A stretch of 52,574 nucleotides of DNA from NCBI GenBank assembly GCA_026421245.1, contig JAPKDJ010000024.1, positions 1 to 52,574 on the forward strand, written 5' to 3'. Made by a program: the position numbers and the translations under genes. Positions 40 to 48,122 of this stretch are shown piece by piece. A model generated the notes under the pieces. That model was not told where the DNA came from and searched no databases. It saw only the letters and a program-made list of their open reading frames with translations. Source of the stretch: Akkermansiaceae bacterium. GTDB taxonomy: Bacteria; Verrucomicrobiota; Verrucomicrobiia; Verrucomicrobiales; Akkermansiaceae. Positions within the stretch are counted from its first letter, which is position 1, and each line of letters begins with the position of its first letter.

Positions 40-321
40 CTTTTTTTTAAAAGGACAGTAATGGACTATGCTAAAATATTCTCAATCCGTCAATTTTTCA
101 TCTGATGAGGCGTGTTGGTGTAGGTTGTTTGTTTTGAGCTGGTTATGAGGTTTATTCCCGGAATTATCTGTGTCTTTTTGTGCCAAGAATGGAACGTTTT
201 GCGCGTAGCGGGATTTGAGTGAAAGAGTTTGGGAAATAGGAGCTTAAGAAAGGCGTGATCGTTGACTCTCTTCGGTCAAAGGTTGTTGAAGATCGAATTG
301 TATCAAGTTATGGGACTGAGC

Positions 322-3267
322 ATGTGCGCATCTGGAATTCGGGGGAGGAAGCTACTCTTGGGGGGAGTTCTGTTTATGGTTTCCTGTTCTCAGGATGAGA
401 AAACGGAGGCTCCTGCAGAAGTGGAAAGTGAATCTGCGGATGTGGCCTATACGACGATGGTAGAGACTGAGGAGATCATCTCGGAGCTCGTGACTCCGAT
501 CAATCGCTTGAGCAGAGCGGTTCGGAATCTGGATGTTTCCTGGAATGCCAAGCTGTTCACACCAGGAGCAGGAGTGGTGGATCTGGACCAATCTGCATTG
601 CTCTCGACAGACGAGTCTCCTGAAATCCGACACTACAAATGGCTGAGTAAAGCGCAGTCCGAGGAGTTGAAAAACTTGGAGGGAGGACTTTGGTCAATGC
701 TTTGGGCAGAGGTCCATGCTTTTGAAGATGCCCGTTTCGGCGTGCTGCGTGGAGAAATGGGAGTGCAACCCGGCACATTTTTCACGGAACTTAAATTGAG
801 TGCGCGGGGAAGAACGGTGGAGAAAGAACAAGGGGCCTGGAAGGGGAAGGTCAAAGTCTGGTGGGAGAAGGAAGACGAGGACTGGCTCATTTCTCGATTG
901 AAAATTGCGGAACTGAAATCACTCATCTCGCCTGCCCCCTTGTTCAGCGAGGTGCTGAATCGTGTGCTGACTTCGCCCGTTGATTTGGCAAAAGCGCGGG
1001 AGTCGATTCACGAACGTTATATCCGGGAAGTCTTCTTTACCGGCGGGACGAAGTTCGCCTATCCTAAGCATTATTGGGAATACATCACCAGCTGGGATTC
1101 GCTGGATCAACATACCTCGGTGTCGGTGGTGGATATCGACGAGGATGGTTGGGATGATTTTTATGTCACGGCCCGCTGGGGAAAGAACCAGCTCTGGCGG
1201 AATCGTGGCGATGGAACTTTTGAGGACATCGCGGGGAAAGTGGGCTTGGACATCGACGGAGTGTGTAATTGCTCCCTGTTTGCGGACTTTGACAATGACG
1301 GCGATAAGGATGTCTTTATCGGGCGGAGTCTCGAAAGGGGGCGCTACTATGTGAATGTCGACGGATCGTTTTTCGAACGAAGCGAGGAGGATCTGGATCG
1401 TCCTTTGCCCTATTGGACCTCCTCGATGTCGACGGCGGATGTCAATGGCGACGGACTCCTTGATTTGTATGTCTCGACCTATCGACTTCCGATTACGAGG
1501 CCTCGGAATATTCTCTCGAAACAGTTTCTAAGTCTTGAGGAACAGGAGGAATGGAAACGTCGCCGGGGATTGGATCACCCGATCTTTCGACTGACAGGTC
1601 CGCCGAATGTCTTGTTGATCAACCAGGGAGGCGGGAAGTTTTCCCAGGCTGCTCAAGCGGGAGGCGCGGACCTTTGGCTGTCGAGTTTCCAGAGCACGTG
1701 GTCTGATTATGACAACGATGGCGACCCGGATCTCTTCGTGGCGAACGATTACGCGCCGGACTACGTTTTCCGGAACGATGATGGTCAATTAACTGACGTC
1801 ACCCGCGCTGTTGCCGGGGGCGAACTGCAGGGATTCGGGATGGGGGTGACCTTGGGCGATTACAATAACGATGGCTTCCAGGATCCTTATTTCACCTACA
1901 TGTATAGCAAGGCCGGGAGCCGGATCACCGGGATGTTCGAGGGGCTGGAACAACGGATGTATGAAGGGGTGGCCGGAAATAAGCTGTTGAAAAATACCGG
2001 TAAAAAATTCGAGCCGACGGAGCTGTCGGTCTCGCAAGCGGGGTGGTCTTGGGGAGGTCAGTTTTCCGACTTAAACAACGACAGTTTCTTGGATCTTTAC
2101 GTGGCGAACGGCCTCTACACGCCACCGATAGGGACGGCGACGGAGGTGGATTTGTGAAGTAGCCTTTGGCGCTCGGTCGTGCGCTCGGACACAAATCTTA
2201 ATAAACGGTTCCTAGAAGAAGGAGTCGATGCCAGTCAGTATGCCAGCATGCCTGGCGTCTTGGACACGAGTAAGAAAGTGGATGGAAAGCCGGTGATACG
2301 AAGTCACTCTTTCAGCGGGAATGAAAGTAATAGTGTCTTCCTGAATCATGGTGGTGAGAGCTTTGAAAATATTTCGGGCCTCAGCGGTCTGGGTAGCCTG
2401 GCCGATGGTCGGGCCTTTGCTTTTTTGGATTTTGATCACGATGGCAAAAGCGACATTGTTTTGACCAATACCAACAATCCGCAACTTCAACTTTTTCATA
2501 ATAGAATCCAGGACGCCGGAAATTCCATTAATATTCGTCTGGTAGGTGGAAATCGAGGAGGGGCGCCTGACAAGACGTGGAGTTCCCGCGACGCATATGG
2601 CGCGCATGTTCTTGTGGAGGTCGCGGGGAAAACGATTCGCCGCGAACTTCGTGGTGGAGATGGCTTTGCGGCCCAGAACAGCGACACGTTGACCATTGGA
2701 ATTGGAAAATCGACAGTGGTAGACAAGGTCAGTGTCATTTGGCCTTCCGGGAAGAAATCAGTGATGGAGAAGATCGAAACCGAATCGCTTGTGACGATCT
2801 TTGAGAATCCCGGAGAGGCTGTGCCCAAAATGATTCGCCAGATTGCTGCTTCGGTTCCGAAAACGAAAACCCGCTTGCTCTCAAGGGGCCGATTGGATCT
2901 CCTGGTAAAGAAAAAGCTCAACGTCGTAGTGACCTTGGCGACCTGGTGTCCGGTCTGCCTCGGTGAAGTTTCTCATCTTCGGCGTTTGTCTGAAAGAGTG
3001 GGCGAGGATGTTGGTTTTTATGCCTTCCCGATTGATCCCGACGACGATGGGGCAAAGCTGACGAAATTCCAAAAGAAGACCAATCCTCCCTATGAAATCC
3101 TGAGTGATTCAGGTGCCGTGCAACGTGAGGCGGTTGAGAAGTTGATGATAGAAAAATTTGGAGAAATGCCTCTCCCGTCGACCTTCATTCTGGATGATCA
3201 AGGTCGTGTCCTGAAAGCGCTCAAGGGAACGCCCACTCTTTCGCAATTGCGCCTACTCAGTCAGTGA
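322..3267 (+). CDS. Candidate selenoprotein: CRTAC1-like FG-GAP/ASPIC-UnbV lipoprotein with C-terminal thioredoxin-like domain (in-frame TGA at 2155-2157)
   Basis: Seen: one reading frame of 981 residues with a single internal TGA (residue 612). Before the TGA is a lipoprotein-like signal (LFMVSC), then FG-GAP/VCBS propeller repeats rich in D-x-D-x-D-G calcium loops (for example DFDNDGDKD). The frame continues without other stops through an ASPIC/UnbV segment (GGDGFAAQNSDTLTIGIG, IWPSGKK) to a thioredoxin/TlpA-like domain with WCPVC (Cys876, Cys879). Residues flanking the TGA (E-V-D-L-TGA-S-S-L-W) match those of the paralogue at 3253-5532, which has TGA at the same codon. A downstream start at the GTG 2179 would have no ribosome site and would split the domain junction. 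Inference: TGA encodes selenocysteine in a secreted redox protein. Starts at TTG 262 or ATG 310 are possible; ATG 322 fits the signal peptide best. Without Sec decoding this would be two separate genes, 322-2157 and 2179-3267. The substrate is unknown. Confidence 0.8.
2155..2185 (+). promoter_or_regulatory. Candidate bacterial SECIS element with its UGA codon
   Basis: The UGA at 2155-2157 is followed after 17 nt by the loop GGTC (2175-2178). The arms are GGCGCTC (2168-2174) and GTGCGCT (2179-2185). They pair at six of seven positions, with a U-U mismatch next to the closing C-G pair and an outer G-U. Spacing and the GGU loop resemble the E. coli fdhF SECIS that binds SelB (known for that system). 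The paralogue on the other strand has the same architecture, with a C-G pair here replaced by A-U there. Function is inferred; no selenocysteine machinery lies in this window. Confidence 0.72.
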
Positions 3268-5532
3268 AATGAGGGGCGCTGAGCCTTCGATGGAATGAGT
3301 GCTTACCTTGCCGGAGGGCCAGCGGACTGAGATTTTTTCCAGTGTTTCATCTGCTGCCAAAGTGATGCAGAGTTTGCTCGAATTTTGAGAGGAAAGCCCA
3401 ACGCCGAGAGCTTTTTGAAGGGCCCGGGTTCCTTTGCTTGTTTTGATTGTTACCAGAGCGCCACAGGCGTCACGATTGCTTACGGTGCCAGTCAACTTTA
3501 GACGAATCATGCGTCCTGGATGGCCTGATTCGCCCAGCTTGTTGCGGAAGATACGCAGTCGTGGGGCGTTGGCGCTGGCAAGGGCGATGTCGAGCCAGCC
3601 GTCGTTGTCGTAGTCGAAAAGGGAAAATGAGCGGGCGTCTTCTTTGCCGTCAATTCCGCTGACGAGAGAGTTGTCCGTGAAGCCACCGGCGCTGGATAGG
3701 AGAAGGCGGTTGCGCTCATTTCCACTGAGGGAATTACTTCGGAAAGCCGGGCCGCCCGGATTGCTTTGTTCGACTCGCAACTGGAAGTTGAGCAGAGGGG
3801 ATTTCCAATGTTCGGAAGTACGAAATTCTGTTGATTTGGTGGGATCGGAGAGCACGACCGTGCTCCAGAAGCAACTTCACAAGTCCACTTCCGTGGCCAC
3901 CTTCTTGGGCGCGGTGTAGTAGCCGCTTGGAACGTAGAGGTCGAGGAGTCCGTCATTGTTGAAGTCAGCGAATTGACCGCCGAAGGACCATCCCGTGCGA
4001 GTCTCCGGGGCGTCCGGTTTTGCGACTTGGTGGAAAACTCCGTCATCATTACGATACATGAAGTTGCCTCGTGCCGCCACTTTGATGCGGGGGTCGACTT
4101 TGCCGACCAGATCGATAATGCGATTCCCTGCTTTGGAATACATGTTGGAGACGAAGAGATCGAGGTCGCCATCGTTGTCGTAGTCTCCGAAGGAGGCACC
4201 CATTCCGAAGGCCATCTCTCCGTCCGGGAAATGCTCGGCGTAGGCATCGACGAAGACTGGCTCGGCGGCTCCCTTCGGGGTCTCGTTTCGCAAGAAGGTA
4301 TCAGGAGAGAAATCATTGCAAACATAGAGGTCATCGTCGCCGTCGCCGTCAACGTCCGCCCAGGCTGGTTGATAGCTTTTACGCCAACGTTTAACGACTT
4401 CCCCGCCGGAACGTTCCAGCCGCCCGCCGCCGCGATTCATGAGGAGGATGTTTGGGCCGCCGCGATCATCGAAGTAGGGATGGGCAGTTGCTGAGAGGGT
4501 GTCGAGACGGGCTGCGTCTGCAGGTGGCAGGTAGCGCTCTTTCCATATGGGCCTGACATCGGTTCCGGGGGTGTAGGTGGTGAGATAGACATCGAGAAGA
4601 CCGTCGCGATTGACGTCTGCGGCCGCAGCGGAAACGACAAAGAATTGCTCGCCGAGGTCAGTGAGTTTGTGAGTCACATTTTCGAAGCTGCCCTGGTTAT
4701 TTTGGTAGTAGAGAGTGGGTTCGAGCGAGCGGCAGACCAAGGCATCGGGATCGCCATCGTTGTCGAAGTCAGCGAAGAGGCTGAAGTTGACGCAATACCC
4801 CGGGGTGAGTCCTGACTCGATGGTGACATCCTCGAAGGTTCCATCGCCCTTGTTCCGGAAAAGTTGCGGCTCGGTGTAGCGGGCAGTGATGAAGAGGTCA
4901 TCGTGACCGTCGGAATCGTAGTCGACCACGCTGACCGAGGGATACTGCTGGGCGCTCTCCATATCGGGAACATCGGCATACTCGCGTTTGGGGAGGATGA
5001 GTCTACGCTTGGTCAAAGCTTCTGTGGTGATTTCCTGATGGGCGCTGTGCTGAGCCTCCTCTCGTTCGTAGTTGGAGGGAATGGCGGTGGCGGTGACATC
5101 TTTGAAAAGAGAGCGAGGTGCCTGCACTGAGGCGAAGGCGAGAGGTTCCCAACCGATTAGGCTGAATTGTCCGTTGGGCTTCGGTTGCCAGGTCATCTTT
5201 TGAGTCGCCTTGATTCCGGTGAGTGAGCCGTCGGGATGCTTCAAGAGTCCTTCGAATTTGGTCTTCGTCACAAAAAGGGGGCCGTCGTAGGTTCCCGAGA
5301 GGATTCCGAATGAGGCATTTTTCCAGATTGAGCCTTTTTTAAGTTCAGCTTTCCATTCGTCGGGAAAGCTTTTCGTGTGGACTCCCTGCGTGATTTGACT
5401 GGCGAGTTTTTTGAGGCCGGGGGTCAGCTTCAGAACGGCTTCCTCGCTGGTGACGACGCGCTTGGCGATTTCTTCCGGAGTGTTGGCGCGGAGTGATGCG
5501 GTGAGGATGAAGAGAAGTAGGAGGGGCTTCAT
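3253..5532 (-). CDS. Candidate selenoprotein: CRTAC1-like FG-GAP/ASPIC-UnbV secreted protein (in-frame TGA at 3879-3877)
   Basis: Seen: one minus-strand frame of 759 residues with one internal TGA at residue 552. The N-terminus MKPLLLLFILTASLRA is a signal peptide. FG-GAP/VCBS repeats follow from about residue 190 (SVVDYDSDGHDDLF, ADFDNDGDPD). After the TGA comes an ASPIC/UnbV domain (RDACGALVTI, LSSQNSSKLCITL, VRWPSGKVS). It is a paralogue of the gene at 322-3267 but lacks the thioredoxin domain. The junction E-V-D-L-TGA-S-C-F-W is shared. Nearby genes use TGA as an ordinary stop, so a global code change is excluded. The gene starts 9 bp after the XylR-type regulator and is probably co-transcribed with it. 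Its 3' end overlaps the convergent paralogue by 15 bp. Sec at the TGA is an inference. Without it, the locus would be split into 3877-5532 and 3253-3855. Confidence 0.8.
3849..3879 (-). promoter_or_regulatory. Candidate bacterial SECIS element with its UGA codon
   Basis: On the minus strand the UGA (3879-3877) is followed after exactly 17 nt by the loop GGTC (3859-3856). The arms are GGAGCAC (3866-3860) and GTGCTCT (3855-3849): six Watson-Crick pairs plus an outer G-U. The hairpin is stronger than the one at 2168-2185 and has identical loop, closing pair and distance to the UGA. One stem pair is A-U here and C-G in the other copy although both codons involved changed amino acid, which suggests selection on the RNA fold. 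Confidence 0.75.
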
Positions 5533-7839: not shown

Positions 7840-9024
7840 ATGATAGACAAGTTTCGCAAAGCCGCTGTATTTTCGGTTGCCGTTCTGCTGGGAGTGGGTT
7901 CCGTTGCCAGTGCTGCTGGAAAGGCAATGAAGGTCTATATTCTGGCGGGGCAGTCGAATATGCAGGGCTCGGCGCATAAGAGCACTTTTCCTGCAATTGG
8001 CGACGATCCCAAGACGGCGCCACTTTTGCAGGAGATTTTGAATGAGAAGGGAGAGCCTGTTGTTTGTGAGAATGCCTGGGTGGCTTATCAGACGACGCGA
8101 AACGGAGAAGATACCATTTTACGGGGGCAGGTGAAAGTGGGGTATGGATTCGATGACGCCCGGATTGGACCTGAATTTAGCTTTGGGATTCACATGGATC
8201 GGGCGCTTGAAGAACCGGTTTTGCTTATCAAGACCGCCTGGGGAGGGAAATCTTTGGCGGTGGACTTTCGGCCGCCGAGTGCTGGACCCTACCTTCCAAG
8301 TAAGAGAGAGGAAGAGGGTGACAATGTTCCCGCTGAAGAAAAAGTTGGCCACTATTACCGCGAGATGATCCGATTTGTCAGGGAGACGCTCAAAGACACC
8401 GGAAGCATCAGGAAGGTTGTCCCGGACTATGATGAAAAGTCTGGATTTGAGCTCGCAGGATTCGTGTGGTTTCAGGGTTGGAATGACATGTGTAACCGTC
8501 ATCACATCGAGCAGTACACCGACAACATGATTCACTTCATTTCTGATGTTCGGAAGGAGTTTGAGCAGCCGAAGCTGCCCTTCATTGTCGGCGTGCTGGG
8601 AGTTTACGGAACGGATCCGGACAGCCGTAGGTTTGACAAGGGGCTTCCGGTGACTGACTTCAGAAAGACCCAGTTTGCGGCCGTGAAACAATACGATGCG
8701 AAGGTCGCTCCAGAATTCCGAGGGAATGTCATCGCGGTCGACAGTGGGCCATTTTACGAGCTGGCTCTCAGTGAGATCTACTGGAAACGGAGAATGACGG
8801 GGAGCTGGAAACGACGTCTCAATGATGGCGAGATGACGAAAGAGAAGTATCTTGAGGAATGCACAAAGTTTGGGTTTGGTGACGGAGAAATCACGGTGGA
8901 GGAAAAACGAACTTGGGACAGATCTTCGTCGAATGCCGAGTATCACTACCTCGGCAGCGGAAAGACCTTTGTTCGATTTGGGAAGGCTCTTGCGGAAGAA
9001 ATGCTCGAGCTGGAAAAGAAGTGA
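7840..9024 (+). CDS. Secreted SASA-type carbohydrate esterase (sialate O-acetylesterase-like)
   Basis: The product has 394 residues. It has a signal peptide (VFSVAVLLGVGSVASA), then the block-I serine motif in ILAGQSNMQGS and a second motif WFQGWND. The C-terminal AEYHYLGSGKTFVRFGKALAEEM resembles the end of the SASA family (former DUF303, related to carbohydrate esterase family 6). Members remove acetyl groups from sugars or polysaccharides (family knowledge). It heads a plus-strand run with a sulfatase 41 bp downstream, which suggests that it deacetylates a sulfated, acetylated polysaccharide before or after desulfation. The exact substrate is not visible. Confidence 0.85.
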   Translation: MIDKFRKAAVFSVAVLLGVGSVASAAGKAMKVYILAGQSNMQGSAHKSTFPAIGDDPKTAPLLQEILNEKGEPVVCENAWVAYQTTRNGEDTILRGQVKVGYGFDDARIGPEFSFGIHMDRALEEPVLLIKTAWGGKSLAVDFRPPSAGPYLPSKREEEGDNVPAEEKVGHYYREMIRFVRETLKDTGSIRKVVPDYDEKSGFELAGFVWFQGWNDMCNRHHIEQYTDNMIHFISDVRKEFEQPKLPFIVGVLGVYGTDPDSRRFDKGLPVTDFRKTQFAAVKQYDAKVAPEFRGNVIAVDSGPFYELALSEIYWKRRMTGSWKRRLNDGEMTKEKYLEECTKFGFGDGEITVEEKRTWDRSSSNAEYHYLGSGKTFVRFGKALAEEMLELEKK

Positions 9025-9065
9025 CCCCTTGTAAGCAGGAAACCAATCCTCAGAAATTTATAAAA

Positions 9066-10442
9066 ATGAAGACGACACTTTTAACACTCATATGCGCTTC
9101 CTTGGTGGCTTCGGGGAAAGAGCCTCCGAATATCGTCCTCATCATGGCCGATGATCTCGGGTGGTTTGATGCTCACTTTCAAGGCAATGAAGCTTTGGAT
9201 ACTCCCCATTTGGACAAATTTGTGACCGAGGGAATGTTGTTTCCTCATGGCTATGCCGCCGCGCCGGTTTGCACGCCGACACGGGCGGCAATGTTGACTG
9301 GGATGTCACCGGCGCGATTGTCGATCACCAATCATGCTCCCGGGCACAAAGAGGGGATGGTTCCGGAGGGACGTAAGCAGGCAGGGGCGAAGAAGCTGAC
9401 CTACCTTCCTCTTGAAGCGACGACCTTGGCTGAACGTTTGAAGGATGAGGCAGGTTATGCAACGGGATTTGTCGGGAAATGGCATCTTTCACACCGGAAA
9501 GGATCTGATGAGGCAGGGAAAAAATTCGAACCGGGGCTGCGTCCGGAATTTCAAGGGTTCGATTTGAATATCGGGGGGTATGATAGAGGTGGTCCGCCGA
9601 CTTACTTCGCGCCCTATAAGATTCCGACTCTCAAGGAAGGAAAAGACGGGGAGTATTTGCCGGACCGATTGGCGGACGAGTGCATTCAATTCATCAAGGA
9701 ACAAAAGAAGGGACCTTTCTTTCTCACGTTCTGGAATTATTCGGTTCATTACCCGATCGAAGCTCCGGAAGATCTCATTGAGAAATACAAGAAGCGCCCG
9801 GTTGAGAACGCTCCCTACGCGGCCATGATCGAAGGGATGGACCGGTCCATTGGGAAGGTTTTAAAATCACTTGATGATCTGGGGCTTTCGGAAAATACGA
9901 TTGTGATTTTCACCTCGGACAACGGATCGCTTTTCAGCAACGGTCCTTTGCGTGCGAACAAGGGGCACCTGTATGAAGGAGGCATGAGGGTGCCTTGGTC
10001 CATTCGCTGGCCCGGTAAGATCAAGCCCGGAAGTAGCAACGATACTCCCGTCATTAGCACGGATGTTTTTCCGACTCTTCTTGAGGTGGCTGGTTTAAAA
10101 CCGAAGGAGGGAACTCCACTCGACGGGGAGAGCTTGATTCCAATTCTCACCGGGAGCGGAACGCTTCAGCGTGAGTCTCTCTTCTTCCACTATCCAAACT
10201 ATGCGTTCCATAATAGGAACCGGTTGGGTGGGGCGATTCGGAAAGGGGACTACAAACTCATCCATTTTTATGACGATGACTCTATCGAGCTTTACGACGT
10301 GGTGGTAGATCAGGGTGAGAAGAACAACCTTGCGCCGTCCAAACCAAAGCTGGCTCGGGAAATGAGGGTGGAGTTGGGCCGCTGGCTTAAGGAATCCGGA
10401 GCGAAAATGCCCTACGTCGTAGACACAAAATCAAAAGAATGA
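9066..10442 (+). CDS. Secreted sulfatase (family S1, arylsulfatase type)
   Basis: The product has 458 residues. A signal peptide (MKTTLLTLICASLVASG) is followed by the metal-binding PNIVLIMADDLGW motif. The formylglycine motif CTPTR has Cys69, which a formylglycine-generating enzyme must convert. Later motifs are GKWHLSH and IFTSDNG with GMRVPWSIRWPG. It hydrolyses sulfate esters, probably of an algal polysaccharide, outside the cytoplasm. The open frame extends upstream to 8913, inside the previous gene; the ATG at 9066 is the start consistent with the signal peptide. Its stop codon overlaps the next start by 4 bp (ATGA at 10439), which indicates translational coupling. Confidence 0.92.
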   Translation: MKTTLLTLICASLVASGKEPPNIVLIMADDLGWFDAHFQGNEALDTPHLDKFVTEGMLFPHGYAAAPVCTPTRAAMLTGMSPARLSITNHAPGHKEGMVPEGRKQAGAKKLTYLPLEATTLAERLKDEAGYATGFVGKWHLSHRKGSDEAGKKFEPGLRPEFQGFDLNIGGYDRGGPPTYFAPYKIPTLKEGKDGEYLPDRLADECIQFIKEQKKGPFFLTFWNYSVHYPIEAPEDLIEKYKKRPVENAPYAAMIEGMDRSIGKVLKSLDDLGLSENTIVIFTSDNGSLFSNGPLRANKGHLYEGGMRVPWSIRWPGKIKPGSSNDTPVISTDVFPTLLEVAGLKPKEGTPLDGESLIPILTGSGTLQRESLFFHYPNYAFHNRNRLGGAIRKGDYKLIHFYDDDSIELYDVVVDQGEKNNLAPSKPKLAREMRVELGRWLKESGAKMPYVVDTKSKE

Positions 10443-11734
10443 ACTCATCCACACCCTATCGAATTCCAGGGCTCGAATTAATTGATCACACCTTCGAAGT
10501 TCCGCTCATTCATAGCGACCCTGGTGGTCGGAAGATCGAAGTTTTCGTCCGTGAGGTCTGTGACCTTGACCCCAAGAGTAAGGAGAAACCTTTCCTGATA
10601 TTTCTGCAAGGTGGCCCGGGTTTTCGGGCACCTTTGCCAATTCGGAAAGAGGGTTGGTTAAAGCGGGCGCTGACTGAGTTTCGCGTGTTGATGTATGACA
10701 CACGGGGCAACGGGTTGAGCACTCCGGTCGATTACCAGACTCTGGCATCGGAAGGAGATGCCCAGGCTCAAGCGGATTATCTCAAGCACTTTCGCCAGGA
10801 CAACATCGTGCGGGATGCGGAGTTGATTCGTGGTCAGATGAGTCCAGATACTCCTTGGTCGACGATTGGCCAAAGTTACGGAGGCTGGTGCACCATGACT
10901 TATCTCAGTCTTCATCCCGAAGGTTTAAAGGAGTGCTTTATTTTTGGCGGTGTTCCGGGATTGGATCGCACCGCACGTGAGATTTACGAAGGGACCTTTC
11001 CTTTCGTGGAGGAACGGAACCGTCAGTATTTTGACAAGTTCCCGATGGACAAGGCGCGGCTGATTAAGCTGGCGGCGCATCTTCAGGAAAACGAGGTTCG
11101 CTTCCCGAATGGTGATCGGGTGACGCCGCAGCTTGTTCAGTTGTTAGGATTAAAGTTTGGATTCGCGCACACCGCGGAAGAGATTCATTTTTTATTGGAG
11201 GAAGCGTTTGTTCAGGCCGGCGATGATGAAGTCGTGAGCCACACCTTCAAAATCGGGCTGCAGTCGGCGCTTCGGTTCGATACGAATCCAATTTTCGCGA
11301 TTCTTCACGAAGCGATTTATGCACAGGGCAGTGCAAGTGGCTGGGCGTGCGGTGAGGTGCAGAAGGAAAACTATCCTCACTTCGATGATTTCGATGACTT
11401 CCTTTTCTATGGCGAGATGGTCTTTTCATGGATGTTTGATGAGATTTCAGAACTCAAGGGAATGAAAGAAGCCGCCGATATTCTTGCCGCCTACGAAGAC
11501 TGGCCCGCGCTTTATGACAAGGAAGTCTTGAGTCAGAACACGGTTCCGACGGCCTGTGCAGTCTACGCCAACGACATGTTTGTGAATGCCAAGTTTTCGC
11601 GCGAGACCATTGAATCGGTTCCAAATATGAAAGCCTGGTACACCAGTGAATACGAACACTGCGGTTTGCGAGTTGGAGGAGAAAAGATTTTCTCGCGTCT
11701 GATTGATCTGGCACGAGGGGAAGTGGAGCGATGA
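10439..11734 (+). CDS. Alpha/beta hydrolase, proline iminopeptidase-like (peptidase family S33)
   Basis: The product has 431 residues without an obvious signal peptide. It shows an oxyanion-hole loop (FLQGGPGFRAPLP), the strand MYDTRGNGLST and the nucleophile elbow GQSYGGW (Ser146). A histidine near the end (YTSEYEHCGLR) is placed as expected for the triad. These features match S33 prolyl aminopeptidases. It is linked by ATGA overlaps at both ends to sulfatase genes, so it is made together with them. A role in cleaving N-terminal proline residues follows from the family; a link to polysaccharide use is only inferred from position. Confidence 0.85.
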   Translation: MNSSTPYRIPGLELIDHTFEVPLIHSDPGGRKIEVFVREVCDLDPKSKEKPFLIFLQGGPGFRAPLPIRKEGWLKRALTEFRVLMYDTRGNGLSTPVDYQTLASEGDAQAQADYLKHFRQDNIVRDAELIRGQMSPDTPWSTIGQSYGGWCTMTYLSLHPEGLKECFIFGGVPGLDRTAREIYEGTFPFVEERNRQYFDKFPMDKARLIKLAAHLQENEVRFPNGDRVTPQLVQLLGLKFGFAHTAEEIHFLLEEAFVQAGDDEVVSHTFKIGLQSALRFDTNPIFAILHEAIYAQGSASGWACGEVQKENYPHFDDFDDFLFYGEMVFSWMFDEISELKGMKEAADILAAYEDWPALYDKEVLSQNTVPTACAVYANDMFVNAKFSRETIESVPNMKAWYTSEYEHCGLRVGGEKIFSRLIDLARGEVER

Positions 11735-13302
11735 CCCGGTCTCTTTGCTTCTCGATGGTTGCGTTGGTTGGTTCTGCTTTTGCCAAGTTTCCCAATATTG
11801 TCATCATTTATGCCGATGATTTGGGTTTTGGTGATCTTTCCTGCTACAATCCAAAATCGTCTTATCAGACTCCCCGTCTCGACAAGATGGCGGCCGAGGG
11901 AGTTCGCTTTACGGATGCGCATAGCCCTTCGACGATCTGCTCGCCTTCCCGATACGGGCTTTTCTCGGGACAACAGATTTACCGTTCAACCGGAGGCGGT
12001 GGAGGTGCCTTTGAGGGACCGGGGGGGCCCAGCTTTTTAAAGCCGGGAACGCTGACTCTGGGTGGGATGCTTCAGGAAAAAGGTTATCACACCGGGATCT
12101 TTGGGAAGTGGCATGTCGGACTGACTTGGCTCGATAAGGATGGCAAGCGATTGGGGGGTGGCTTTAAAAACTCCCTGCTGATCGACTACGAGAAAAGCAC
12201 TCCTTTGATCGATGGCCCGAACAAGAGAGGCTTCGATGAATCTTTCGTCACGCCCAACTGTCCCACCACTGATCCGCTCTATGTTTACATCGAAAACGGG
12301 ATGGTGCCGGTGCCAGCCAATCAGCGTTATAATCCCGAGAGCAGTCCAAACCCAGGAGGGAAGTGGCGTTGGGACAATGATGCGGGGTGGATGGCTCCGC
12401 GCTACGAGTTTGTGAATGCCGATCTGCTCTTTTATAACAAGACCAAGGAGTTCATTTTAAAACACCAAAAAGAGACTCCCGAGACACCTTTCTTTGCTGT
12501 TTTCTCAACCCAGATTGCGCATGCACCCGTGCTTCCTGCTGAGGAGTTCAATGGGGCGACCAAAGCTGGTCCCCGGGGAGATTTTGTTTATGAACTCGAT
12601 ACCTTGGTCGGGCGCGTCCTGGACCTGCTTGATGAGTTGGGAATCGACGATGATACGCTCGTGCTATTCAACTCCGACAACGGCCCTGAAACTGTCCACG
12701 TTGATTGGATGCGCCAGGATCATAATCACGATCCATCCGGCGGTTGGCGTGGCGTGAAACGGGACGGCTGGGAAGGGGGACATCGTGTTCCCTTTATTGC
12801 ACGCTGGCCGGGGCGGATTCCCAGAGGACAAATTTCCAACCAGATGTCTAACACGACCGATATCTTGGCGACCATTGCGTCGGTGGTGGGTTACAAGCTG
12901 CCTGACGAATCCGCGACCGATAGTTTTGATATGCTGCCGGCGATGCTGGGGAATCAGGACCCTAGGGGGTCAATACGGCCTCATCTCCTCACGCAGAGCT
13001 TTCGAGGTGAATTTCAAATCCGGCAAGGAGATTGGAAATATCTTGATCACAAAGGTTCGGGTGGGAACGGTTACCAAAAAGGCATTCTTAAGAAATATGC
13101 TCTTAAGGAAAGTGAACCCGATGCTCCCGGACAGCTCTACAATCTTGCTGTTGATCCCGGAGAAACGAGCAATCTCTACTTCAAAGAAGAAGACAAACGA
13201 AAAGAGATGCAAGCCCTATTGGAGCAGCTCAAAGAGAGCGGTCGGAGTGCGCCCATGGGGAGAATCCCAATGGGTATCGAGAACATTCCCTTGGCGAAGT
13301 GA
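11731..13302 (+). CDS. Secreted sulfatase (family S1)
   Basis: The product has 523 residues. It starts with a short signal peptide (MTRSLCFSMVALVGSAFA), followed by PNIVIIYADDLGFGD and the formylglycine motif CSPSR (Cys70). Further sulfatase motifs are FGKWHVGL and LFNSDNGPE. Aspartates 29 and 30 should bind Ca2+ with the formylglycine (family knowledge). It overlaps the preceding hydrolase by 4 bp and is the last gene of this run. It is longer than the sulfatase at 9066 and only distantly similar, so it likely attacks a different linkage. Confidence 0.92.
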   Translation: MTRSLCFSMVALVGSAFAKFPNIVIIYADDLGFGDLSCYNPKSSYQTPRLDKMAAEGVRFTDAHSPSTICSPSRYGLFSGQQIYRSTGGGGGAFEGPGGPSFLKPGTLTLGGMLQEKGYHTGIFGKWHVGLTWLDKDGKRLGGGFKNSLLIDYEKSTPLIDGPNKRGFDESFVTPNCPTTDPLYVYIENGMVPVPANQRYNPESSPNPGGKWRWDNDAGWMAPRYEFVNADLLFYNKTKEFILKHQKETPETPFFAVFSTQIAHAPVLPAEEFNGATKAGPRGDFVYELDTLVGRVLDLLDELGIDDDTLVLFNSDNGPETVHVDWMRQDHNHDPSGGWRGVKRDGWEGGHRVPFIARWPGRIPRGQISNQMSNTTDILATIASVVGYKLPDESATDSFDMLPAMLGNQDPRGSIRPHLLTQSFRGEFQIRQGDWKYLDHKGSGGNGYQKGILKKYALKESEPDAPGQLYNLAVDPGETSNLYFKEEDKRKEMQALLEQLKESGRSAPMGRIPMGIENIPLAK

Positions 13303-13457
13303 GACGGTTGAGTGATCGAAATTGTGAGAGATCTTCGAAAATGATTTTTGTGTGCAAGGGGAAATTGCTTTTTCTTCCTCAAAGAAAGATAGGGGAGGGA
13401 CTAAAAATGAGGGGTTTGCGATGAGCAATCCTTCTTTTTTCGTTCTCTTGTTGGACA

Positions 13458-13750
13458 AAAATCCTGACCGCCGTTTTAGCGGCTCTGTGCATGTCAGGTT
13501 TGGCTTGCGCTGAAATGGGCGAACAGGGCGCGAATGCCATGACAGGAGGGAAGCATTCAGCGGTTCTTGATACGATTGCGGTTGCGCACGCTGCGGCGGG
13601 AGATTTTGAGAAAGCCCTTCAGGTGATTAGCAGGGAATCCGTATTGCCGTTGAGAGCGGTGATGAGGCAGGCGCCGTGGCGATGCGAGAGCGCTTAGGTC
13701 TATTCAGGCTTGGCAAGCCTTACCGAGATCCCAAGGCAGGCACAAAATAA
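13458..13750 (+). pseudogene. Decayed TPR-protein remnant
   Basis: One frame encodes a signal-peptide-like stretch (KILTAVLAALCMSGLACA) with no start codon in the right place. It runs directly into a last TPR repeat (AVLDTIAVAHAAAGDFEKAL). Near 13650-13665 the frame must shift to continue as SGDEAGAVAMRERLGLFRLG and then KPYRDPK to TAA 13748-13750. Endings of this LFRxGKPYRDP type are common in verrucomicrobial TPR proteins (recalled, unchecked). The remnant therefore looks like an internal deletion plus a frameshift. The rest of the 532-bp gap (13303-13834) holds nothing else I can support. Confidence 0.55.
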
Positions 13751-13834
13751 GGTGATTGGGTGAGGTGAATTGTTTTGATTTCCATGACCTATCCGGCGGG
13801 CGTTTTCCGGGTTTCTAATTTTTCGTCTCCGAGG

Positions 13835-15019
13835 TCATTTTTTGGAGGGGTTTTCGTACCAAAAGACCCCGAGTTGATCGCGTTCCTCGCAGCAAAGGAT
13901 ATCGAGGTCGCTGTCTCCATCGACATCATATGGAATCACTTGATCGTATTTGACACCGGGTTCGCCGGCGATTTCGTGACTTTGCCATTCTTTATCAAAA
14001 GGCGAATCGCGCCAAGAGAGCCAACGCATTCCGGATAGGGGACCGTTGGCTTCTTCGCAGCTAAAAACGATGTCGTTCCTGCCATCGAGATTGACGTCTA
14101 AAATCACCGCGCTTTTCCCTCCTCCCACGCCCTTGGGAAGCGGGATCACGTGTTCGCTCCAGCCCGTTTTGTGAGCCCGAAACCAGATCACTGACTTCTT
14201 GTCGATGGCGATGATGTCCAGGACGCCGTCTTGATCGAGATCTCCGTGTGAGATGAATTTAATTTCGCGGTCCTGGCCTCCGATGTTGCGCCGTCTCCAC
14301 TTTTGATTGTCTTCAACCGCTGATGCCTCCGGACGTTCCAGCCAGTAGATGCCCCGCCGTTGACCTTTACGATCACTCACGAGAATGTCATCCCGTCCAT
14401 CCTTGTTCATGTCGATCGCGATCAAGGACATGATCCAACCGGCGTCTTGAAGTTTATGGTATTTCCAATTCGAAAGGTCGCGGGCATTTTTGGGGCTTTG
14501 AAGCCAGCCGATACTTCCGTTGTTTCCCTTCGAACCAACGATCAGGTCGAGGCCGTTCCTGCCGTCGATTTCGATGGGCAGGGCATACATCCAAGCTTGC
14601 TTGCGGGCCGTAGCCGGGATCGCCTCCGTTATCCATTTGGAGGCATCCAGAAACGAGGAGAGTTCCTTTGGGGCCCAGTGGATAAACATGCTCTTGGTTC
14701 CTCCCTCACAGGAGCTCACAACATCGGCTGCTCCGTCCCCATCGAGATCGGCAAAAACGGCATCTTCCGCCGAACGCACCTTGCCGACTGTGACCGCAGG
14801 CCATTTTTGTTTCGCTTTCGCTTTTCCGGGATGGAGGTAAGCGCGAACGATTCCGCCCTCTTCCCAGCCAGTGGCGATATCCGGCAGGCCATCTCCATTG
14901 ATGTCAGCAAGGCGAATCCCGTCCGCGCCTTTTGAGCTGTCATCGATGGTGTGTCTCGCCCAAGGCCCTTCGGCATGAGCCAACGAGGAAGAGATCAAGA
15001 TTAAGACGACTTTTTTCAT
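13835..15019 (-). CDS. Secreted FG-GAP/VCBS repeat protein
   Basis: The product has 394 residues with the signal peptide MKKVVLILISSSLAHA. It carries at least six D-x-N/D-x-D-G-x-x-D loops (ADINGDGLPDIATG, ADLDGDGAADVV, IDMNKDGRDDILV, GDLDQDGVLDIIA, LDVNLDGRNDIVF, YDVDGDSDLDILC). These calcium-binding loops build an integrin-alpha-like beta-propeller. No catalytic motif is visible, so a binding or scaffolding role outside the cell is most likely. It is only distantly related to the two TGA-containing proteins and has no ASPIC/UnbV domain. It follows the sulfatase at 15037 in the same orientation with 17 bp between, probably in one transcript. Confidence 0.85.
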   Translation of the reverse strand: MKKVVLILISSSLAHAEGPWARHTIDDSSKGADGIRLADINGDGLPDIATGWEEGGIVRAYLHPGKAKAKQKWPAVTVGKVRSAEDAVFADLDGDGAADVVSSCEGGTKSMFIHWAPKELSSFLDASKWITEAIPATARKQAWMYALPIEIDGRNGLDLIVGSKGNNGSIGWLQSPKNARDLSNWKYHKLQDAGWIMSLIAIDMNKDGRDDILVSDRKGQRRGIYWLERPEASAVEDNQKWRRRNIGGQDREIKFISHGDLDQDGVLDIIAIDKKSVIWFRAHKTGWSEHVIPLPKGVGGGKSAVILDVNLDGRNDIVFSCEEANGPLSGMRWLSWRDSPFDKEWQSHEIAGEPGVKYDQVIPYDVDGDSDLDILCCEERDQLGVFWYENPSKK

Positions 15020-15036
15020 GGGGACGTGAGTAAATC

Positions 15037-16416
15037 TTACGGGGCTTTGAGGAGGGGTTTGGCTTCTTTAACCCATCCAGCGGGGCGCTGACCTTTGCCC
15101 GCCTCGTTGCCGTCACCAAGGTCCTGTCTGGCCTCATCGGCGTAAAATATCAGGCGCTTCACAACATCGGGGTGCGCTTCGGCAAGATTAGTTTGCTCTC
15201 CTAGGTCGGTGCTGACATCAAAAAGCTGAAGAGGACTGTCTTTCTCTTTGCCGCTCCAGCCTGTCAATTTTTCAGCTTGTGGGAGAACGAGTTTCCACTT
15301 GCCGCTGCGAACGGCCTGAAGCTGAGTGGTGTGATAGTAGAAGAAGGCCTTGCGAGGAGATTTTGCGCCGAGCTTTCCGAAAATAAGATTGCGAACATCA
15401 TGGCCGTCGATCTTGCGGTTTTTGGAAATTTGACCTTCGGCGAGAGCGGCGAAGGTGGGGAGGAAATCGAGAGTGGATACGAGTTCGCGGCAGGTCTTTC
15501 CAGTAGGGATTTTTCCGGGCCAACGCATGACACAAGGCACGCGCATTCCTCCTTCGTGTGTCGTTCCTTTGGAGCCTTTGAGAGGTTTGTTGCTTCCCCC
15601 ATTTTGAGCATTGGAGCCATTGTCGGAGGTGAAAATGACGAGGGTTTTCTCGTCAATTCCGGTGTCCTTGAGTGCTTTTAGAATTGCGCCCGTTGAGGCG
15701 TCCACTTCTTCGATCCAGTCACCGTATTTTCCATTCTTGGATTTTCCAGCGAAGGCCTTTCCGGGAAAGAGAGGGAGGTGGACCGAAGTATGCGGAAGGT
15801 AGAGAAAGAAGGGCTTCTTTGAGTTCCGCTTGATGAAGGAAACGGCCTCTTCGGTGTAACGACGGGTGATGGGTTCTTGTTTGATGGGGGCTTCGAGGAC
15901 TTCCTCATTCCGAAGCAGAGGCAAGGGGATGTTCTTTCGTCCCATGTCATTGGAGTATGGGATGCCGAAGTAGGAATCGAATCCCTGTCTGGTGGGGAGG
16001 AACTTGGATTGGTCGCCGAGGTGCCATTTGCCGATGCAGGCGGTAGTGTAGTTTTGCTTTTTGAGGATTTCAGCGATGGTGGTTTCATCCGGGTTGAGTC
16101 CTTTTCTTGCAGAAGGGAAGAGGACCCACTTGTTGTTCTGGTCAATGTGCATGCTGACGCGGCGCGGATAGCAACCCGTCAGGAGGCTGGCACGGGAAGG
16201 GGTGCAGACTCCGCTGGTGACGTAGAAGTCAGTGAAGCGGATGCCCTCGCGAGCCATTTGGTCGATGACCGGAGTGCGGTTCTTGCTGGAGCCGTAGCAC
16301 CCGATGTCGCCGTAGCCCATGTCGTCCATATAGATGAGGACGATGTTAGGGCGTTCGGCGTTGGTGTGAACGATGCCGAGGAAGAGGATGAATAGAATGA
16401 GATTGAAAGGATTCAT
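15037..16416 (-). CDS. Secreted sulfatase (family S1)
   Basis: The product has 459 residues. The signal peptide MNPFNLILFILFLGIVHTNA is followed by PNIVLIYMDDMGYGD and the formylglycine motif CTPSR (Cys71). IGKWHLGD, FTSDNGSN and MRVPCVMRWPGKIP complete the family pattern. It is predicted to hydrolyse sulfate esters in the periplasm or outside, after activation by a formylglycine-generating enzyme that is not in this window. It is the third sulfatase in 8 kb, which points to sulfated polysaccharide or mucin use. The FG-GAP gene follows it. Confidence 0.92.
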   Translation of the reverse strand: MNPFNLILFILFLGIVHTNAERPNIVLIYMDDMGYGDIGCYGSSKNRTPVIDQMAREGIRFTDFYVTSGVCTPSRASLLTGCYPRRVSMHIDQNNKWVLFPSARKGLNPDETTIAEILKKQNYTTACIGKWHLGDQSKFLPTRQGFDSYFGIPYSNDMGRKNIPLPLLRNEEVLEAPIKQEPITRRYTEEAVSFIKRNSKKPFFLYLPHTSVHLPLFPGKAFAGKSKNGKYGDWIEEVDASTGAILKALKDTGIDEKTLVIFTSDNGSNAQNGGSNKPLKGSKGTTHEGGMRVPCVMRWPGKIPTGKTCRELVSTLDFLPTFAALAEGQISKNRKIDGHDVRNLIFGKLGAKSPRKAFFYYHTTQLQAVRSGKWKLVLPQAEKLTGWSGKEKDSPLQLFDVSTDLGEQTNLAEAHPDVVKRLIFYADEARQDLGDGNEAGKGQRPAGWVKEAKPLLKAP

Positions 16417-43873: not shown

Positions 43874-44635
43874 ATGGCTAACTTTTTTCCCCGTTGGACA
43901 AACCTATTGCCGCTGAAAATTGCGGTTTGTCTTGGAGCACTTGGTGCCGGCGTTGTTGCTGGTTTTACGTATTACGCAACACCCAAGGCGCAGCGAGTCG
44001 GCTACCAGCCCACTCAACCCATTCACTACGACCACAACCTGCACGTGAGTCAGCTGGGCATGGACTGTCGTTACTGCCATAGTTTTGTAGAGCACTCGGG
44101 CCATGCGAACGTTCCAAGCGCCAACACGTGTTGGAATTGTCACCAGCATGTTAAAAAGGGTTCGCCGAAACTTGCTGGTCTTCGTGCCGCAATGGCTGTC
44201 GATGAGTTTCACAGTCCACTGACGGATGCCAACGGAAACCTTGTTGAAGGGACGCCCATTGAGTGGGTCCGAATTCACAAGGCCCCTGATTATGTTTACT
44301 TTGACCACTCGGCTCACTTGAATCGGGGAATTTCCTGTGTGAGTTGCCACGGAGATGTGCACAAGATGGAGAAAGTCTATCACGCTGAGAGTCACTCCAT
44401 GGGATGGTGTCTGGATTGCCACCGTAGCCCCGAGAAGCACCTCCGTCCTCTTGAGGAGGTCTTCAATCTCGACTACGATCCCAAGGTTTATCTCGAAGAA
44501 AATGAAGTCGTTGATACCGAAGGCCTGATTGTTGAGAAAGGCGAACGAATCAAAGATCCCGAGAATTTCGGCAAATTCCTCCGTGCACACTGGGGAGTTC
44601 AGCCCAAGGAGTCCTGTGCGACTTGTCACCGTTAA
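43874..44635 (+). CDS. actA: Alternative complex III subunit A, pentaheme cytochrome c
   Basis: The product has 253 residues. A membrane segment lies at 13-35, and five heme motifs follow: CRYCH (65-69), CWNCH (86-90), CVSCH (155-159), CLDCH (179-183) and CATCH (248-252). Five hemes, the single anchor and the position at the head of the act genes identify ActA. It carries electrons from the quinol site toward the monoheme subunit and the terminal oxidase. The first intergenic distance to actB is 16 bp. Confidence 0.95.
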   Translation: MANFFPRWTNLLPLKIAVCLGALGAGVVAGFTYYATPKAQRVGYQPTQPIHYDHNLHVSQLGMDCRYCHSFVEHSGHANVPSANTCWNCHQHVKKGSPKLAGLRAAMAVDEFHSPLTDANGNLVEGTPIEWVRIHKAPDYVYFDHSAHLNRGISCVSCHGDVHKMEKVYHAESHSMGWCLDCHRSPEKHLRPLEEVFNLDYDPKVYLEENEVVDTEGLIVEKGERIKDPENFGKFLRAHWGVQPKESCATCHR

Positions 44636-44651
44636 TTTTAACCTGCCAAAG

Positions 44652-47600
44652 ATGAGCAAACGCGTCTGGAACCCACCCGTCACTCCGCAAGGAGGAGATA
44701 CCACCACTGCTTGGCGTAGTGTTGGTGAAAAAGAAGGCTCGCAGAGTTTTCGCGAAATCCTCGAACGCGAGTTCCCGCAAGGTGATTCCCTTTCCGAGGA
44801 GGAGCAGAAAGTCTCCCGCCGAAATTTCACGAAACTCATGGGAGCTTCAACGGCTCTGTCCGGTCTCGGATTGGCCTCCTGCCGACGTCCTGAGAGCTAC
44901 ATTGTTCCGTATAAGAAGGCCCCAGAGTGGATCGTTCCAGGTAAACCTCTCTTCTATGCCAGCACCCGCCCGAAATCCGGAGGGGCGGTCCCATTGGTCG
45001 TGACCACCCACGAAGGGCGTCCTACCAAGCTTGAGCCCAATGCTGATCATCCAGATTCCGCCGGCACTTGTGCTCAAACCCAGGCTACGGTTCTCGATCT
45101 CTATTCTCCTTCCCGTTCCCAGAAAATTTTCAAAGGCGGCATGGAGGCGACTCAAAGCGAATTGCAGGAAGCGCTTGCAGCCTTGGATCTCTCTAAGACC
45201 GCTTTGGTTTTTGGTGAAGATGATTCACCGACCCGTAACCGTCTCGCCAAAGGTTTGGCGGGGAAGGGGGCGACTTTGATTTCCTACGAGGCCGTCTCCG
45301 GTGAACCCCTCCAAAAGGGACTGTCCCAAGTGGTGGATTTTTCTAAGGCAGACCGCATTCTTTCGCTCGATTGCGACTTTCTCGGTGCCGACCCGGTTGG
45401 AAACAGCCGCGTATTCTCGAAAAAACGTCAGGGTGGAAACGCCGACTACAATCAACAAGGGGATGTTGATGCCGCCAAAATGAACCGTCTCTACCAAGTT
45501 GAGACGCAGTTCAGCCTCACCGGAGGCATGGCCGATCACCGACTTCGAGTCGCCCCTAGTCGGGTTGGAGTGGTTGCAGCGGCTATCGCCGCCGAGTTAG
45601 GTGCAGGTGGACAGGATGCCTCAGACGAAGATAAAATAGCATTTTTCCCGGAAGCAGACAACGCTGCCGAGCTATTCAAGGAATGGGTAAAAGCCTGTGC
45701 TGATGACCTTAACGCTGCAGGAGCGAGGGCCTTGGTCTTGGCCGGTTCCCGGCAGACCAAGGCCGTGAAGCAGCTTGCCGCAGCCATGAACAAGGCCCTG
45801 GCCTCAAGTGCCGTTCAGTCTGTGAAAACCGACTTCGGGCAATACGGCACTCTCGCCGATCTCACCGCCAAGCTTGAGGCTGGCGATGTGGAAAACGTCA
45901 TTTTTCTTACTCCGTCCAATCCGGTTTTCGATGCGGACGGATTTGCAGGTGCTCTAGTCAAGGCCAAGGTCTCCATGCACTGGGGCCTTCGAAAGGATGC
46001 GACTGCGTGGGCCTGCGATTGGCACGTTCCCGCTGCACACTATCTCGAAAGCTGGGGCGACGTCCGCTCTGAGTCCGGTGTGCTTTCACTCATTCAACCC
46101 ATGATTCTTCCTCTCTACGGCGGAATCATGGAACTTGATCTCCTCCATGTTCTTGCCGGTGGAGATTTCGCCAGTGGAGAATTTTTCCCCGCCATGGGCG
46201 AGGTGAAAGCTACTTTCGCTGAAATTACCGGAAAGCCCGACGATATTGCTTGGCGTGATGCTCTCACCGAAGGCTTTGTTGCCGGCACTGCATACGCAAC
46301 TGGCGAGCTGAGTCCCGGAACTCCCTCGCTTGATTTCGGTTCTTCTCCAACAGCCAAAGGCCTGGAGATTGTCTTTTCAACCGATGCCTCCGTCCTTGAT
46401 GGTCGGTTTATCGACAACGCCTGGCTTCAGGAATCTCCCGATCCTGTCACCAAGATGACATGGGACAACGCGGCGCAAGTCTCTCCGCAGACCGCCAAGG
46501 ATCTCGGGATCTACGACAAAGTCATCGCTCTCGAGCCCAAGACCAATCTCATGGGCGTCGGCGGCAAGGTGAAAGTTTCCAAGCGCTACGAAACCGGAGA
46601 AGGAGAGGGGAACCATTCCCCCATGATTGAACTTACCGTGAGTGGTCGTGAACTGAAGGTTCCCGTTCTCATTGCCTACGGACATGCCGACAATGCTATC
46701 ACTCTTCCTGTTGGATACGGTCAAGCTGCCGACGATGGCCGCGAAGGTGCTCCCAAATTCGACTCGAGCAAACCCACGGTGGGGCTCGTTGGCGTCAACA
46801 CCGGATTTAACGCTTATCACCTCAGGACATCCCAAACTCCTTACTTCGCCACCGGCGGAGTGGTGAAGACGACTGAGGATAAATATCCCGTCGCTCTCAC
46901 CCAGGAGCACAACTCGATGTATGGCCGCGCGTTGGCCCGTGAAATTTCCACGAACGATCTTGAGGGCAAAGGATCTTTTGAGGATCAAAAGCAGAAAGTG
47001 AAGAAGCAGGGGATGGATTCCCACGCTCCGCCCAATATTTCCCTCTACAAGCCCGAAGGAAGCGAGACTTGGTCCAAGACCGATCTTGCGGCCAAGACTC
47101 ACCTTTCCGACGAAATTCACCAGTGGGGAATGGCCATCGATCTCAATACCTGCACCGGCTGTAACGCCTGTCTGGTTGCCTGTCAGGCCGAGAATAATAT
47201 TCCTGTTGTGGGCAAGGATCAGGTTGCCATGGGCCGCGAAATGCACTGGATCCGTATGGATCGCTACTTTGCGTCCCAGGAGAATCCCGTCGAACATGGC
47301 CACGTCAATAAGAACGCCGAAAATCCGGCTTGGGTCACTCAGAATCCGGAATCTATTCCTCAGCCTGTCGCTTGTGTTCAGTGTGAGATGGCTCCCTGCG
47401 AGACCGTTTGTCCGGTCAACGCGACCGTTCATACCGAGGAAGGCCTTAACTCGATGGCCTACAATCGCTGCATCGGAACGCGTTACTGCGCCAACAACTG
47501 CCCCTATAAGGCCCGTCGTTTCAATTTCTTCGACTACAACAAGCGTAATCCTCTCATCAAAGGCAATCTTTACAAAGGACCCTTTGGAGAGAAGAAAGTT

Positions 47601-48092: not shown

Positions 48093-48122
48093 TCTCGAGA
48101 AACCTTTCCTGCGACTGACATC

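Follow-up and report, generated by a model that had tools for sequence, protein, structure and literature searches.

In-frame TGA codons in FG-GAP/ASPIC-UnbV proteins of an Akkermansiaceae bacterium very probably encode selenocysteine and belong to a widespread, apparently unlisted selenoprotein family

Two neighbouring genes for FG-GAP/ASPIC-UnbV proteins (genes 1 and 2) were studied in a 52,574-nt stretch of DNA from an Akkermansiaceae bacterium (contig JAPKDJ010000024.1; the whole stretch is called the window). Both carry an in-frame TGA. Going by the sequence, TGA 2155–2157 on the forward strand (gene 1) and TGA 3877–3879 on the reverse strand (gene 2) are almost certainly decoded as selenocysteine (Sec, U). 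The single-TGA pattern at this junction was far beyond chance, because it recurred in gene 2, at 13 of the 14 matching junctions of the same genome and in 149 of the 150 matches listed for the taxonomic family. The selenoprotein family is large and real, it is apparently unlisted, and its members come from soil and marine bacteria of several groups. The original prediction had read gene 1 as a likely new selenoprotein family; the Sec machinery of the genome, the homologues, the TGA codons of the paralogues and a hairpin behind the codon supported that reading.

Gene 1 (310..3267, forward strand, like all its features) comprised 985 codons when counted from the ATG at 310. The ATG at 322, where the frame had originally been taken to begin, is a possible start too. 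The translation of 322–3267 contained one internal stop, as predicted: the TGA at 2155–2157, which is codon 612 counted from 322 and corresponds to residue 616 of the protein. Protein-like sequence was confirmed on both sides of it, with Pfam matches to FG-GAP_3 before the TGA and to UnbV_ASPIC (2593..2793; PF07593, 64.8 bits) and then a Redoxin/AhpC-type domain after it. By eye, an extra FG-GAP-like repeat followed the TGA ahead of the ASPIC domain. The propeller and ASPIC/UnbV parts had been named correctly from the start, but the C-terminal TlpA/ResA-like thioredoxin domain (2908..3222; PF08534, 3e-10) had not. This domain contained a CxxC motif (CPVC, 2947..2958) and scored 40.5 bits against the Pfam Redoxin model (cut-off 26.6), and all its matches to the NCBIfam DsbE/ResA models were under the curated cut-offs.

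The original prediction had named gene 1 but missed gene 2, the second TGA gene, as well as the hairpin. Gene 2 (3253..5532, reverse strand, 759 codons) adjoined gene 1 convergently. FG-GAP repeats and UnbV_ASPIC exceeded the Pfam cut-offs in both genes, and no thioredoxin-like domain was detected in gene 2. Its TGA (3877..3879, residue 552) lay at the equal junction: ATEVDL-U-SCFW in gene 2 versus ATEVDL-U-SSLW in gene 1.

The genome (4.32 Mb in 192 contigs, with the window as contig C86) contained 27 UnbV_ASPIC matches. A profile of the junction element gave 14 matches at 78–98 bits. Thirteen of these had exactly one TGA, and the remaining one (contig C80) was a Cys form, RDY-C-SNYW. We aligned the proteins of 13 of the 14 junctions (contig C128 was left out). 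The U/C column, into which the TGA of gene 1 fell, was invariant, as were Asp at −2 and Trp at +4. The genes selA, selB, selC and selD had been proposed as a check, and the complete set was found: selA (479 bits), selB (299.5 bits), selD (387.8 bits) and a tRNA-Sec (55 bits) with the anticodon TCA. The selD gene itself (locus L048, contig C68) contained an in-frame TGA in the context GG-U-ASK (base 1531 of the complementary strand) and is the selenoprotein form of SelD, a known family.

Some further observations were made on the paralogues of this genome. Three Sec-type paralogues stood on the same strand of contig C4 (L027), where the end of the second is the start of the third. The end of contig C128 (L239) and the start of contig C58 (L039) shared protein sequence, and one Sec-type gene is apparently split across these contig ends. 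Downstream of the Cys-type paralogue on C80 (L034:4231), a thioredoxin/TlpA-like frame had a TGA in its active site (GFW-U-GPC) and is probably another selenoprotein.

Homologues with the TGA were found in Verrucomicrobiota, Planctomycetota, Acidobacteriota and Gemmatimonadota, and they ran through the TGA position with conserved flanks. When 288 genomes were sampled evenly across the phylum, the window's own genome was the only one with a TGA-containing match; many weaker matches elsewhere ended before the site. Within the taxonomic family (195 genomes), 46 genomes had the junction element at a threshold of E 1e-9; their matches summed to 293, with up to 18 per genome. Among the 150 of these matches that were listed, 149 had one TGA, and TAA or TAG occurred in none. 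Listed matches showed the TGA in 37 of the 46 genomes, 36 of which had selA. Of the 46 genomes that had the element, 44 also had a detected selA, versus 26 of the 149 that lacked it (Fisher p 7e-23, uncorrected for kinship).

Among the best 80 loci of a scan of named genomes, Sec forms occurred in Akkermansiaceae, other Verrucomicrobiota and Planctomycetota (L092, L096, L097 and L154), and also in metagenome-assembled genomes of Acidobacteria (L087) and Gemmatimonadetes (L082). Here, selA was above the cut-off in all 13 Sec-type genomes and in three of the seven genomes with a non-TGA match. A broader profile matched 128 of 396 genomes at E 1e-8 in the phylum of L087, with TGA and non-TGA forms mixed. 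In the phylum of L096, 79 of 294 genomes had a match at E 1e-12. Of the 150 matches listed there, 127 contained a single TGA.

For the residues around the site, 171 junction rows were compared (165 distinct downstream sequences). This set was deliberately enriched for rows with no TGA. The site was TGA in 118 rows, Cys in 13 and Glu, Ser, Gly, Asn, Ala, Asp, Gln or Arg in 40; neither TAA nor TAG was found. The Cys counterpart expected at residue 612 thus existed (in C80 of the same genome), but other residues were commoner. The sequence D-L-C-S-x-F-W, which the original prediction gave for relatives, was not seen. All 13 Cys rows read D-Y-C, they clustered together in the tree, and a thioredoxin-like domain was detected in none of them. 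Downstream of the TGA, the Sec rows kept Trp at +4 (111 of 118) and Arg at +5 (104 of 118). The residues right after the TGA are conserved, and therefore they are translated.

A second frame with a GTG start (2179–3267) lies inside gene 1, downstream of the TGA, and could be taken as a sign that the gene is broken or codes for two proteins. The probability of this is negligible: the 118 TGA rows from several phyla break at the same codon, conserved residues lie between the TGA of gene 1 and the next start, and, of the 150 matches listed for the taxonomic family, 149 align to the 57-position profile straight across the TGA. A pseudogene, a sequencing error and a change of the genetic code were ruled out by the paralogues and by the terminator of gene 1, which is a TGA as well (3265–3267). 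The latter also bears out the earlier statement that the code is unchanged.

In both window genes, the TGA was followed by a hairpin resembling a selenocysteine insertion sequence (SECIS). The gene 2 hairpin (3849..3866, reverse strand; GGAGCAC-GGUC-GUGCUCU) had an unbroken stem of 7 bp, a GGUC loop 17 nt past the codon and an energy of −10.2 kcal/mol (33-nt stretch). It fits the bacterial SECIS model of the review PMC13188914: a loop 16–37 nt past the codon, 3–9 nt long, with a G within its first two positions. The hairpin of gene 1 (2169..2184, forward strand; GCGCUC-GGUC-GUGCGC) was alike in place and GGUC loop (−8.7 kcal/mol) and formed only with one U.U mismatch within the stem. Most Sec genes had a hairpin of about 6 bp that started 11 nt past the TGA, with a loop of the GGUC, GGUCG or AGUU type 17 nt past it. 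Under the loop rules of PMC13188914, an unbroken stem of at least 5 bp was found in 69 of the 78 distinct Sec rows.

Several results weigh against decoding as Sec or weaken the hairpin as evidence for it. Two of the 46 element genomes (G363 and G373, with a completeness of 83% and 70%) had no detected selA. A strict search for unbroken stems missed the mismatched hairpin of gene 1. The hairpin was only moderately stronger than in synonymous recodings: 3 of 12 genes of the own genome were below 0.05 each, with a combined p of 4e-4. RNAalifold found almost no consensus structure in 12 sequences. In our opinion, this is because two stem registers were mixed, and pair counts by register were used in its place. 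Lastly, a search with looser placement found stems of at least 5 bp in 16 of 29 non-Sec rows as well (69 of 78 Sec rows), and therefore the fixed position alone discriminates.

At this fixed position, at least five of the six stem pairs were present in 91 of the 107 distinct Sec rows that had the Trp codon in register, in none of the 13 Cys rows and in 7 of the 38 other rows. GU stood at the loop position in 107/107, 0/13 and 31/38 of these rows, respectively. In several weak Sec rows, the hairpin appeared by eye to be in a different register. Behind the TGA stands an Arg codon, whose wobble base mostly has no effect on the protein. This base formed a pair with position 1 of a later codon in 87 of 90 rows, and the pairs observed were GT, AT, CG, GC, TA and TG. 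In an earlier row set, 230 of 246 stem cells paired versus a maximum of 220 in 5000 shuffles; the rows are related, and no probability is implied. Rfam gave no match within the window at gathering thresholds.

The many different residues at the site in non-Sec homologues would suit a UGA that is read as some other amino acid by a suppressor or near-cognate tRNA. We regard this as highly improbable: the element tracks selA, the SECIS-like hairpin covaries, and the same gene terminates with TGA.

A second, more divergent Sec subfamily was represented by L232–L237 (D-L-U-L-P or D-L-U-A-A), with no thioredoxin-like domain detected. Hairpins with a GGTC loop occurred in this subfamily at a spacing of 20 in six of seven rows.

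Insertion of the Sec is very probably the work of the usual bacterial SelA/SelB/SelC/SelD system, directed by the hairpin that starts about 11 nt past the codon. Decoding of UGA as Sec competes with termination, and termination in gene 1 would leave a product of about 615 residues. The TGA could thus act as a selenium-controlled switch, with ample selenium yielding the full protein and a shortage of it a short propeller protein. Such a switch is compatible with Sec decoding, but homologues that have a sense codon in place of the TGA can do without one, and we consider it quite improbable.

The product would be an FG-GAP propeller/ASPIC-UnbV protein in which a single Sec opens a helix a short way ahead of the ASPIC domain. 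By their N-termini, as judged by eye, the proteins are probably exported. An AlphaFold2 model of gene 1, with Cys standing in for Sec, had a mean predicted local distance difference test (pLDDT) score of 79.1 and a predicted template modelling score of 0.80. In this model, residue 616 opened helix 616–625, two residues past the end of strand 610–614, and the blocks around the site had a pLDDT of 72 and 69. Neither UxxC nor CxxU occurred at the Sec site of gene 1. A GPx-like Sec/Trp/Asn site was considered and stayed a guess.

Most Sec rows examined had a C-terminal thioredoxin-like domain, and the structures of TlpA and ResA matched the family profile. The Sec has about an even chance of being the catalytic selenol of a redox enzyme that is re-reduced, in most members, by this fused TlpA/ResA-like domain through its CxxC. 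Members with no such domain, for example gene 2, would draw on a separate thiol reductant. The likeliest candidate for a substrate is a peroxide, sulfoxide or disulfide. Among the rows with a thioredoxin-like domain, the CxxC was kept in 95 of 97 Sec rows and was missing in 27 of 30 rows with neither Sec nor Cys. The tendency of the CxxC to be missing along with Sec suggests a Sec–CxxC relay.

This association was much smaller on trees, which were built leaving out the site itself, and other rows speak against the relay too. Only 5 switches were counted (about 2 concordant, 0 discordant and 3 neutral; p 0.5), and when loss of the whole domain was included, there were 9 switches (about 5 concordant and 0 discordant; median p 0.06). 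The association shrinks to a few independent events and is therefore offered as a lead. Three rows had no Sec and yet kept the CxxC (L083, L221 and L227). In two rows with Sec, the CxxC was undetected (L179 and L253), and the thioredoxin-like domain as a whole was undetected in 17 Sec rows.

These 17 rows and the three non-Sec rows with CxxC would also fit a Sec that is inserted in a non-redox role, e.g. in metal binding, next to an independent CxxC domain. Moreover, non-Sec homologues often have residues at the site that are incapable of thiol chemistry. We hold a non-redox role to be unlikely. The modelled site, a helix start following a strand, is a typical place of Sec in redox sites, as a generalisation, and no independent pair, of the few there were, showed the CxxC and Sec changing in opposite directions.

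A broader reading is a large unrecognised class of exported selenoenzymes, with a propeller/ASPIC catalytic unit, Sec at a helix start and a TlpA-like thioredoxin domain in the same polypeptide to recharge it. Members of this class would number twelve or more in some Verrucomicrobiota genomes and be common in Planctomycetota and Acidobacteriota. We put it at a little short of even chances. If true, these ASPIC/UnbV proteins would be enzymes and a major reason why the hosts keep selenocysteine. In any case, the function of this ASPIC/UnbV group becomes testable.

Many of the host Verrucomicrobiota, Planctomycetota and Acidobacteriota are probably aerobic. According to PMC13188914, selenoproteins are rarely retained in aerobic bacteria. 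This review of May 2026 tabulates 119 prokaryotic selenoprotein families and subfamilies, and no family named FG-GAP, ASPIC, UnbV or propeller was found in its Table 1 or by term searches of the main text. Nor was an FG-GAP/ASPIC selenoprotein family named in the available parts of PMC12013277, PMC9312934 and PMC2398784. Among the open-literature papers listed, which for these phyla covered 20 of 80 and 20 of 44 results in two cases, there was no report of such a selenoprotein with ASPIC, UnbV, FG-GAP, VCBS or CRTAC1, or from these phyla; most subscription papers, all preprints and a groundwater survey cited in PMC13188914 were outside this coverage. The papers listed on ASPIC/UnbV/FG-GAP proteins in general gave no report of this family either. 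When six proteins of the family were scanned with NCBIfam, no selenoprotein model for the family was among the matches. A UGC-type ResA-like model matched the thioredoxin-like domain in two of the six, far under its cut-off.

The family resembles known bacterial selenoproteins in its in-frame UGA, the presence of SelA/B/C/D, TGA homologues in many genomes and a model-fitting hairpin in most rows. It differs in its scaffold, which is absent from the table of PMC13188914, and in that replacements other than Cys outnumber Cys in the family rows. Searches for Cys/Sec pairs may have missed it because the non-Sec homologues more often carry Glu, Ser, Gly, Asn and other residues than Cys. Such methods should be weak wherever Ser, Gly, Asp or Glu replaces Sec. 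Pipelines that treat UGA as a stop are expected to annotate the members as truncated genes, at as many as 18 matching sites in one genome. This is an unusually abundant selenoprotein family on a scaffold new to the inventory table of PMC13188914.

With CRTAC1 and other ASPIC-UnbV FG-GAP proteins (PF07593, PF13517), the family shares the order of FG-GAP repeats and then UnbV_ASPIC. Cartilage acidic protein 1 (9etn) was the only solved structure matched by the gene 2 sequence. Among the 60 chains listed for the family profile, it was the sole one of its kind. A putative difference is the D-x-U-x-x-x-W element of the family; a further one is the fused thioredoxin-like domain that most Sec rows carry. 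The C-terminal domain matches thiol reductases of the TlpA/ResA/DsbE type and has their CxxC, but it is fused, falls under all curated NCBIfam cut-offs, and the Sec is in a different part of the protein. Selenium–thiol redox chemistry, the likely function of the family, would be shared with UxxC thioredoxin-fold selenoproteins. Those have their Sec within the thioredoxin fold, whereas here the fused domain keeps Cys and the Sec precedes the ASPIC domain.

Genes 1 and 2 were neighboured in the window by an AraC-type regulator, a SASA esterase, three sulfatases, a further FG-GAP protein and a PSCyt-type protein. At the other loci, where the starts of adjacent frames were compared by eye, no gene was common to all, and no consistent gene partner emerged. 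In L027, L033 and L081, a small protein on the opposite strand with similar starts (WSIG, WNLG or WTVG) adjoined the gene-1-type genes in all three. The acetylesterase and three sulfatases beside the window genes (7840–16416) resembled a polysaccharide-degradation locus. At 44529–49655, a 4Fe-4S protein of 1187 codons was followed by an NrfD-type protein, which resembled part of a respiratory complex. The contig started with a short tandem repeat, aatttactgaggc, at positions 1–40.
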